36,504 nt of DNA from a virus. The notes beneath the pieces are model-generated. The model had not been told where the DNA came from, made no database searches, and saw only the letters and a program-made list of their open reading frames with translations. The stretch lies in the IMG/VR virus record IMGVR_UViG_3300031595_000165, positions 1 to 36,504 of that record. The stretch is one strand, 5' to 3'. This document shows positions 12,066-24,007 of this stretch, in pieces (position 1 is the first letter of the stretch; each line of letters starts with the position of its first letter). The position numbers and the translations under genes are program-made.

Positions 12066-12139
12066 GCGGGTTTGACCGAGAGGCCAGGTAGCAGCCTTCC
12101 AAGCTGATGACAGCGGTTCGATTCCGCTATCCCGCTCCA
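12066..12139 (+). tRNA. tRNA-Gly (UCC anticodon), phage-encoded
   Basis: 74 bases with CCA encoded. The acceptor GCGGGTT pairs with ATCCCGC (one T-T mismatch at pair 6). The D arm ACC...GGT carries a GG loop. The anticodon loop CTTCCAA gives UCC, on a stem with one G-A mismatch. The T arm is AGCGG-TTCGATT-CCGCT, discriminator T, then CCA. The anticodon and T arms closely resemble bacterial tRNA-Gly(UCC). Two imperfect pairs leave open partial decay. It lies just before the head genes and would be transcribed with them. Confidence 0.75.
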
Positions 12140-22008: not shown

Positions 22009-22038
22009 TCAATCAGCCCTTTGGCAAGGCAAACCGCA

Positions 22039-22070
22039 GCGCCGTGAGGCGCCGCATCCCATAGACGGAG
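22039..22070 (+). promoter_or_regulatory. GUGA-loop hairpin and ribosome site before the sheath gene
   Basis: GCGCC (22039-22043) GTGA GGCGC (22048-22052) forms a 5-bp GNRA-type hairpin, 14 bases before the ribosome site GGAG (22067-22070). A matching element precedes the tube gene at 23599 with a compensatory base-pair change. Confidence 0.65.
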
Positions 22071-22079
22071 CCTCACACC

Positions 22080-23561
22080 ATGACCGTGGGTTTTAAGCAC
22101 ATCCCGCAGAATATCCGCGTTCCGCTGTTTTACGCGGAAGTGGATAACTCCCAGGCCAACACCGGCAGCATCAACCAGCGCGCCCTGATCGTCGGCCAGA
22201 TCACTTCGGCCGGCACCGCGACCCCGGGCGTCCCCGTGATTTCGCAGGGCGTGGCCGACGCTAAGACCCTGGGTGGCCCCGGCTCGCAGCTCGCGCTGAT
22301 GACCGCCGCCTATCGGGAGAACGATAATTTCGGCGAGCTGTGGTATCTGCCGCTCTCCGACGCCGGCTCGGCGACCGCCGCGACCGGCACCATCGCGATT
22401 ACCGGCCCGGCCACCGCCAACGGCACCATCTGCCTGTACATCGGCGGCGTGCTTGTCGCCCAGGGCGTAGCGTCCGGTCAGGCGAATACCACCATCGCCA
22501 CGGCGCTGGCTGCGACGGTCAACGCCAACACCGATCTCCCGGTCACCGCCTCGGCGGCCAGCGGCACCGTGACCCTGACGGCCAAGAATAAGGGCACCTG
22601 CGGCAACGGTATCGATCTGCGCCTGAACTATCGCGGCGCCCTGGGCAACGAGGCCCTGCCGACCGGCGTCGGCGCCACCATCACCGCCATGTCCGGCGGC
22701 GCGACCGATCCCACCCTGACGACCCCGTTCGCCAACCTGCTGGATCAGCCCTTTGACTTCATCGCCTTCCCCTACACCGATTCGACCAGCCTCGATGCGG
22801 TGAAGGCCCTCCTCGACGACAATACCGGCCGCTGGGCCTGGTCGCGGCAGATTTATGGCCATGCCTTCGCCGCCGCCTCGGGCACGCTGGGCACCCTGAC
22901 CACCCTGGGCGTTGCCCGGAATGATCAGCACGCCAGCATCATGGGTTTCTATGACAGCCCGACCCCGGCTTGGATCTGGGCGGCAGCCATCGCCGGCCAG
23001 GCCTCGGCCAGCCTCCGGGCTGATCCGGCGCTCCCGCTGCAGACCCTGGCCCTGTCCGGCGTCCTGGCGCCGCCGCTGTCGTCGCGCTTCGCCATGACCG
23101 ACCGCAATGTGCTGCTGTTCGACGGCATCTCGACCTTCACCGTCGCCGACGACGGCACGGTCGCTATCGAAAACCTGATCACCACCTACCAGAAAAACAG
23201 CTTCGGCCAGCCGGACAACTCCTATCTGGAAGTCGAAACCCTGTTCACCCTGGCTTACGTGCTCCGCTTCATGCGGACCCGTGTGACCAGCAAGTATGCC
23301 CGCGTCAAGCTGGCGGCCAACGGCACCCGCTTTGGCGCCGGTGCTGCGGTGGTGACCCCGAACATCATCCGCGCCGACCTGATCGCCGCCTATCGCGAGA
23401 TGGAAACCGCCGGCCTCGTCCAGAACGGTGACGCCTTCAAGGCAGCGCTGATCGTCGAGAAGAACGCCAGCAATCCGAACCGGGTGGATGTCCTCTGGCC
23501 CGGCACCCTGATCAACCAGCTCCGCATTTTCGCGGTGCTGGCGCAGTTCCGCCTGCAGTGA
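22080..23561 (+). CDS. Contractile tail sheath protein, Mu gpL-like
   Basis: 493 aa, sheath family PF04984, length as in Mu L. Starts GFKHIPQNIRVPLFYAEVD and carries RALIVGQITSAG and GGPGSQLALMTAAYRENDNFGELW; the C-terminus has FMRTRVTSKYARVKLAANG. It polymerises around the tail tube and contracts to drive the tube through the cell envelope. GGAG is nine bases before the ATG, behind the leader hairpin. Confidence 0.95.
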   Translation: MTVGFKHIPQNIRVPLFYAEVDNSQANTGSINQRALIVGQITSAGTATPGVPVISQGVADAKTLGGPGSQLALMTAAYRENDNFGELWYLPLSDAGSATAATGTIAITGPATANGTICLYIGGVLVAQGVASGQANTTIATALAATVNANTDLPVTASAASGTVTLTAKNKGTCGNGIDLRLNYRGALGNEALPTGVGATITAMSGGATDPTLTTPFANLLDQPFDFIAFPYTDSTSLDAVKALLDDNTGRWAWSRQIYGHAFAAASGTLGTLTTLGVARNDQHASIMGFYDSPTPAWIWAAAIAGQASASLRADPALPLQTLALSGVLAPPLSSRFAMTDRNVLLFDGISTFTVADDGTVAIENLITTYQKNSFGQPDNSYLEVETLFTLAYVLRFMRTRVTSKYARVKLAANGTRFGAGAAVVTPNIIRADLIAAYREMETAGLVQNGDAFKAALIVEKNASNPNRVDVLWPGTLINQLRIFAVLAQFRLQ

Positions 23562-23567
23562 TCTTGG

Positions 23568-23596
23568 GGCCGCCCCGCTCGGCGGCCTCGTCTTTT
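23568..23596 (+). terminator. Terminator-like hairpin after the sheath gene
   Basis: GGCCGCC (23568-23574), six-base loop, GGCGGCC (23581-23587), then TCGTCTTTT. Compatible with a partial Rho-independent terminator that would lower tube-gene transcription, or with 3' protection of sheath mRNA. Confidence 0.55.
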
Positions 23597-23598
23597 CA

Positions 23599-23631
23599 GC
23601 GTCGTGAGACGCCACCCCTCCCTTGATGGAG
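23599..23631 (+). promoter_or_regulatory. GUGA-loop hairpin and ribosome site before the tube gene
   Basis: GCGTC (23599-23603) GTGA GACGC (23608-23612), then 15 bases, then GGAG (23628-23631). Same loop, same stem length and nearly the same distance to the ribosome site as at 22039-22070, with C-G replaced by T-A in the stem. Confidence 0.65.
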
Positions 23632-23638
23632 TTTCCTC

Positions 23639-24007
23639 ATGGCCGATACCTCCCGCCTCGTCGGCGGCACCGCCTACCTGTCCGTGGACGGGCAATCTTA
23701 CCTTCTGACCGGTGACCTCAAGTGGTCCCCCTCCGTCGTCAAGCGCGAGACGGTCACCGGCATGGACGGTGTCCACGGCTATAAAGAGACCCCGATCACC
23801 GGGCACGTCTCCGGCACCTTCCGCGACACCTCCAGCCTGACCGTGGCCGACTTCAACGCCATGACCAACGTCACCGTCACCATTGAGCTGAACAACGGCA
23901 AGATGGTTGTGGGCCGGAATATGTGGACGGTGGATAGCCAGGAGGTCGATTCGACCGAGGGCACCGTCGAGGTGAAGTGGGAAGGTATGTCGGTCGAGGA
24001 GGCTTGA
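23639..24007 (+). CDS. Tail tube protein, Mu gpM-like
   Basis: 122 aa, family PF10618. Landmarks are RLVGGTAYLSVDGQSYLL, GMDGVHGYKETPITGHVSG and NNGKMVVGRNMWTVDSQEVD, as in Mu-type tubes. Hexamers stack to form the inner channel for DNA. Directly follows the sheath gene, as in all Mu-like tails, and carries the same leader hairpin. Confidence 0.93.
   Translation: MADTSRLVGGTAYLSVDGQSYLLTGDLKWSPSVVKRETVTGMDGVHGYKETPITGHVSGTFRDTSSLTVADFNAMTNVTVTIELNNGKMVVGRNMWTVDSQEVDSTEGTVEVKWEGMSVEEA

Follow-up and report, generated by a model that had tools for sequence, protein, structure and literature searches.

The leader of T7 gene 10 carries a 5' hairpin and a strong SD in front of the major capsid gene, and is thought to raise its expression. 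In Escherichia coli, the leaders of ribosomal-protein genes and of thrS contain folded mRNA just upstream of the SD, which contacts the platform of the 30S subunit. The put RNAs of phage HK022 consist of two hairpins in the phage RNA, which act on RNA polymerase. Conserved RNA structures of single-stranded RNA (ssRNA) phages include a 5' hairpin, an operator hairpin at the replicase gene that is bound by the coat protein, and a 3' domain (PMC3561173). Comparative genomics of metagenomes has yielded candidate structured RNAs, such as manA and wcaG, which form families in 5' UTRs, some of them in phages (PMC2864571).

The DNA analyzed here (the window), a phage record of 36.5 kb from IMG/VR, encodes a contractile tail module of the Mu/SfV-like type, and in it a structured leader precedes two tail genes. 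Like the T7 gene 10 leader, leaders of this type place a hairpin (P2) upstream of an SD, with a major capsid gene behind it in other carriers. The T7 hairpin, however, starts at the phage promoter, has no sequence or loop in common with the new leader and is not joined by a second hairpin, whereas the new leader is a covarying family found across unrelated phages. The E. coli leaders are repressor sites of host genes, while the new leader is viral and its contact with the 30S subunit is only inferred. It shares the two-hairpin layout with HK022 put, but is tied to the SD and also occurs in RNA phages, and its presence in ssRNA phages argues against a put-type action on RNA polymerase. The structures of leviviruses are likewise short hairpins of conserved shape, and the optional hairpin P1 of the new leader (5' bulge, 2 pairs, tetraloop) resembles their operators. 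None of the levivirus structures listed is, however, a GNRA hairpin before the coat SD (PMC3561173), and P2, unlike the levivirus operators, precedes coat or maturation genes and is also found in DNA phages. Among the metagenomic candidates for which phages are mentioned, none precedes capsid genes (PMC2864571). When the window and nine carrier loci were compared with Rfam 15, only a tRNA in the window reached the gathering score; the leaders alone, at a lax threshold, gave no match in the window and two weak chance matches in one carrier (L182). A description of the leader was not found in the open full-text literature, which does not exclude one elsewhere. We therefore regard it as a new, previously unnamed family within a known kind, the structured 5' leader, and one that is unusual in being common to DNA and RNA phages.

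Anatomy of the two leaders in the window

An earlier note on this DNA had described hairpins ahead of the sheath and tube genes with a common GTGA loop, a 5-bp stem and 14 to 15 nt to GGAG, and the sequence agrees at both copies. At the sheath gene, GCGCC-GTGA-GGCGC (22039-22052) lies 14 nt from GGAG (22067-22070). It forms the inner stem (GCGCC/GGCGC) and GUGA loop of a larger P2 hairpin (22036-22055, + strand), which is extended by an A38.C53 mismatch and the outer pairs C37-G54 and G36-C55. A linker follows, UCCC...GACGGAG (22057-22070, +; placed by alignment to the covariance model R1, see below), and ends in the SD. The start codon comes 9 nt after GGAG and opens the tail sheath gene (22080-23561, +; 493 aa; phrog_165, E=3e-193).

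Upstream of the sheath-gene P2 lies P1 (22016-22030, +), with the sequence GCC-C-UU-UGGC-AA-GGC. Its 3-bp stem pairs GCC (22016-22018) with GGC (22028-22030) below a bulged C22019 and a UU-UGGC-AA top, and the bulge, the loop and the 22-nt distance to GTGA match the covarying P1 family described below.

The tube copy, GCGTC-GTGA-GACGC (23599-23612), lies 15 nt from its GGAG (23628-23631). Here, P2 (23598-23613, +) has the inner stem GCGUC/GACGC and a GUGA loop; the mismatch is present (A98.C613) and the position-7 pair is absent. The linker UCCC...GAUGGAG (23619-23631, +) was again placed by alignment to R1, and the tail tube gene (23639-24007, +; 122 aa; phrog_185, E=3.5e-33) starts 7 nt after GGAG. 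No P1 was found upstream of the tube gene, so that the sheath gene alone has one. The place that P1 could take is occupied by a terminator-like hairpin between the two genes (23565-23590, +), followed by TCTTTT. With its GC stem and U-run, this hairpin does fit the criterion for an intrinsic terminator, which neither P2 in the window meets, as no U-run lies 3' of them on the + strand. The earlier note had overlooked the mismatch of P2, the flanking P1 and the conserved UCCC / GA-N-GGAG linker. Its impression that there are no further copies held, the next R1 match in the window reaching only E=0.54.

Thermodynamic folding of whole leaders was unexceptional (z from -1.75 to +0.13), and the lowest-energy predicted fold of the window's sheath leader excludes P2. 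For two leaders, the predicted fold encloses the SD in a weak CUCC/GGAG hairpin; in the window, a small hairpin of this kind is predicted over the SD of the tube leader. Elsewhere in the window, a tRNA-Gly gene (anticodon TCC; 12066-12139, +) is located between the early genes and the packaging module.

A covarying leader family in tailed phages

The two 14-mers by themselves prove little: allowing one mismatch, shuffled sequences gave a mean of 0.9 matches, compared to the 2 found, and 21 of 100 shuffles gave at least 2. We therefore relied on R1, a covariance model built from 45 other phage leaders with both window copies left out. R1 matched the window at 22034-22070 (51.7 bits, E=1e-13) and at 23594-23631 (36.2 bits, E=4e-9), which confirms, at the level of sequence, that the two hairpins belong to a widespread phage leader family.

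Members of this family were sought in viral contigs with a pattern of a fixed-stem hairpin plus an SD, regardless of the downstream gene. This gave 91 matches, versus 5 for a reversed control, and although any gap of 6 to 25 nt to GGAG was allowed, 13 nt occurred 38 times and 15 nt 24 times. The pattern left one Y and one R position of the stem unlinked, which were filled by TA (60), CG (29), TG (3) and CA (0); as these positions were unconstrained and are paired nonetheless, the covariation is no product of the search. Another pattern, requiring GTGA and the linker but leaving the stem free, gave at least 120 matches, and those listed include many different paired stems as well as a five-base loop variant, GUGAN. 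In all, the leader recurs in hundreds of other phage contigs. One hundred carrier loci held 146 R1 matches, with one to four copies per contig. In four contigs, P2 occurs as tandem pairs about 45 to 65 bp apart (L179:173-256, L228:2274-2358, L278:808-910 and L341:6207-6290), of which only the second unit adjoins a long ORF.

The complete unit consists of an optional P1, P2, UCCC and GA-N-GGA(G) containing the SD, with the start codon about 7 nt further on. P2 has an inner stem of five pairs, followed by an A.C mismatch at position 6 (94/128) and a pair at position 7 (CG, GC or UA; 124/128); position 8 is often paired as well. Across 139 distinct instances, 98% of the cells were paired, and 151 cells showed double changes, against 46 in shuffles. 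Double changes occurred at 5 of 6 pairs, and the covariation was lost when the partner column was shifted by 1 to 3. These counts lean toward the model, to which the matches were fitted, but the training alignment gives the same picture. The compensatory change from C-G to U-A that the earlier note had inferred from just two copies is borne out by the same instances, in which this pair is UA in 79, CG in 54, UG in 5 and otherwise in 1. The P2 loop is a GNRA loop with a preference for U, mostly GUGA or GUGAN. An obligatory GUGA can be ruled out, as loops of GCGA and of GAGA are also found at the correct spacing.

P1 is present in 50 of 125 leaders (about 40%), with a bulged C and the loop UU-NGGC-AA. 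When instances were picked by the loop TTNGGCAA alone, the stem pairs were formed in 35, 36, 35 and 33 of 36 cases, with all pair types and in a single register that includes the bulged C. In most instances, 21 to 24 nt separate the P1 loop from GTGA. The linker (CC, 5 to 10 nt, GGA) was found in 129 of 135 instances, although the search patterns imposed part of it. A pseudoknot between the GG of the P1 loop and the CC of the linker is possible; covariation cannot assess it, because GG and CC are both nearly invariant and CC is kept in leaders without P1.

The leader did not descend with the sheath and tube genes. Relatives of these genes were gathered from viral and bacterial contigs (the best at about 70% identity), and none of 100 loci (972 kb) carried the leader by R1 at E<0.05. 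The earlier note had named the lack of a hairpin at these leaders in relatives as a refutation, and in the literal sense this has come about. However, the sheath and tube genes are not what the element moves with, and their relatives were thus the wrong place to look. Many of the relatives (L009, L021, L038, L047, L077 and others) have a terminator-like hairpin a few bases before the tube SD, with the form GCCGCC-loop-GGCGGC-U run, and in some also before the sheath SD. This is a different hairpin in the same place, which may lower read-through or protect RNA ends.

Behind 133 of the 146 R1 matches, an ORF of at least 60 aa follows at SD spacing; the commonest distance from SD to start codon is 7 nt. 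PHROG assignments of representatives include major head proteins (phrog_617, 283, 212, 1328, 1357, 1005, 9953 and 334), a scaffold protein (3927), major tail proteins (13196, 158 and 807) and another tail protein (290), as well as a portal (1216) and a tail fiber (1640); some leaders precede genes that are unidentified or not high-copy. That such unrelated structural genes follow the leader suggests that it is tied to a functional class, the bulk parts of the virion, rather than to a gene lineage. A BLASTP comparison of nine carriers, some on incomplete contigs, revealed no protein family common to all of them, the widest covering 5 of 9. This speaks against a shared phage-encoded binding protein, so that any factor involved is probably encoded by the host, or is the ribosome itself.

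Leaders in ssRNA phages and probable hosts

In the ssRNA phage SRR6254353_2, BLAST with the consensus picked up an identical stretch of 18 nt; GUGA hairpins stand ahead of the maturation gene of this phage and ahead of its coat gene. In a second one, SRR6050738_4, the A.C mismatch and the CC linker are kept. A pattern scan, run without a reversed control, gave 24 stretches, 18 of which are levivirus contigs as recognized by size, gene order and a GDD motif. RNA_replicase_B was confirmed in four of them, and Phage_mat-A plus a phiCb5-type coat protein in one. In 17 of the 18, an ORF of 116 to 124 aa lies directly behind the element, in the position of the coat gene; the coat leader itself lies around nt 1200 to 1500, internal to the genome. 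R1, trained on DNA phages only, detected 13 of the levivirus cases (E=2e-9 to 3e-4). While the hairpin itself was forced by the pattern, the linker was not, and it contains CC in 14 of 17 leaders; the position-7 pair also varies (GC, UA and CG). Two further contigs of levivirus size (L536 and L587) have different paired stems that the search had not forced. Upstream hairpins with a stem of at least 6 are enriched in the 17 levivirus leaders (8/17, compared to 2.8 in shuffles).

In leviviruses belonging to two orders (Steitzviridae and Fiersviridae), the hairpin precedes the maturation gene and not the coat gene alone (L394, 162-175 and 1615-1628; L487, 217-246). As P2 in leviviruses lies before coat or maturation genes and not at the replicase start, it does not meet the criterion for a coat-protein operator. 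It is not a general levivirus trait either, as the isolate phiCb5 lacks the leader and no copy was found in any of six other levivirus records inspected.

The hosts of the carriers are probably alphaproteobacteria, which is indicated but not proved by two observations: matches at E<=1e-4 were found in 7 of 385 alphaproteobacterial genomes and in 0 of 274 gammaproteobacterial ones (small counts under strict filters, with one of the 7 chosen because it holds a related prophage), and one levivirus coat protein is of the type of a Caulobacter phage. The clear bacterial matches precede phage head or tail genes or small ORFs, by which a leader of host genes was rejected, insofar as the strict filters allow. 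In the alphaproteobacterial MAG REEB112 (prophage loci L378, L382, L384 and L386), two prophage-like contigs both carry the leader ahead of a major head-like gene and ahead of a tail gene, with about 3.8 kb between the two. Short BLAST searches of known tailed phages gave nothing convincing, and relatives of the capsid proteins from Rhizobium, Roseibium and Pseudomonas phages lack the leader.

Function of the leader

The fixed SD distance, the covariation, the high-copy structural genes and the ssRNA-phage coat genes support the earlier suggestion of a translation or mRNA-stability element, and action at the RNA level is strongly supported. In the absence of data on expression, structure probing or binding, we consider it somewhat probable that the leader is a modular, cis-acting RNA by which translation initiation is increased for virion proteins made in many copies; enhancement, as opposed to regulation, is an inference, and so is the identity of the contact. 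Its position before abundant structural genes of unrelated phages suggests that it boosts their translation, and its position before the coat genes of ssRNA phages favors translation over transcription. Tailed-phage late operons and levivirus genomes are alike in that host ribosomes translate their capsid or coat gene. In the mechanism we propose, P2, 13 to 15 nt upstream of the SD, would touch the platform of the 30S subunit, or an RNA-binding protein of the host that sits on this platform, and the contact would speed capture of the 30S subunit at that start codon. P1 may supply a second contact or prevent misfolding of the leader; the module itself would pass from phage to phage separately from the genes that follow it. 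Contact of this kind during 30S binding fits with a folded hairpin held at a constant SD distance beside a conserved linker. Against enhancement, the weak SD hairpin predicted in two leaders would by itself lower initiation. The unexceptional folding of whole leaders and the carriers whose downstream genes are unidentified or not high-copy also count against the proposal.

The alternative that we take most seriously, while still thinking it unlikely, is that P2, with P1 or another upstream hairpin, shields the 5' end of the transcript from RNase E-type decay, so that a processed or primary structural-gene transcript gains segmental stability within the late operon. Other strong upstream hairpins are indeed overrepresented in leaders without P1 (stem of at least 7 in 15/75, versus 4.9 in shuffles), as are, to a modest degree, promoter-like sites a short way upstream (7/75 versus 2.2), which implies that P2 can lie at a transcript 5' end. 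Stability does not, however, need a near-fixed SD distance or a linker next to the SD that is as conserved as the hairpin, and the coat leader of the ssRNA phages is internal to the genome. Somewhat more doubtful is a regulatory switch, in which P1 or P2 is bound by a protein, of host or phage origin, or by a small ligand that opens or closes the weak SD hairpin and thereby times late expression. Two hairpins with conserved loops would suit it, as would the bulged C of P1 two pairs below a tetraloop, a layout resembling coat-protein operators, and the ability of UCC to pair with the GGA of the SD. The A-N-GGA at the SD also recalls CsrA/RsmA sites, but the P2 loop is GNRA, and the weak predicted SD hairpin has GGAG in its stem and not in its loop. 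Speaking against a switch are the absence of a phage protein common to the nine carriers, the conservation of UCCC with or without P1, the lack of P1 in more than half of the leaders, and the genes behind the leader, which belong to the same high-copy class and not to one pathway.

A role in transcription, as a promoter, a DNA operator, an intrinsic terminator or a put-like modifier of RNA polymerase, is very improbable. Palindromic DNA, the two-hairpin layout and the terminator-like hairpin just upstream of the tube copy could be read in this way, yet leviviruses have no DNA stage and carry the leader, so transcriptional explanations fail as general accounts. Moreover, the stem sequence of P1 is free while its pairing is kept, the position of the unit is tied to the SD, terminator-like hairpins upstream are rare (5/142), and none of 50 leaders with P1 has a promoter-like site before it. 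Finally, a coincidence, or an artefact of shared sequence confined to this single genome, can practically be dismissed: the two 14-mers alone were within reach of chance, but this explanation is refuted by the independent R1 matches and by the excess over the reversed-pattern control together with the covariation.

Beyond translational enhancement as such, the data raise a broader possibility, for and against which we see about equal grounds. A single translation-leader cassette may be in use in tailed dsDNA phages and in ssRNA leviviruses that have no common gene ancestry but share their hosts, bacteria that are mostly uncultured and probably alphaproteobacterial; it would be read by a host ribosome or factor not previously known to recognize such a hairpin, and would have been gained by transfer or convergence before whichever structural gene has to be expressed most. 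If so, it is a compact signal for very strong translation common to unrelated DNA and RNA phages, it points to a so far unknown way in which the host ribosome, or an RNA-binding protein of the host, recognizes RNA, and the hairpins of DNA and RNA phages should act alike. For uncultured phages, such a signal would help to predict hosts and capsid genes; it could also serve as a portable expression leader for alphaproteobacteria.

In three carriers (L294, L306 and L347), repeated TTTGCAAA sites surround a promoter-like TATAA box just upstream of P2 (for example L306:4248-4285, minus strand). This array looks like a set of operators on a promoter, with the transcript starting near P2.
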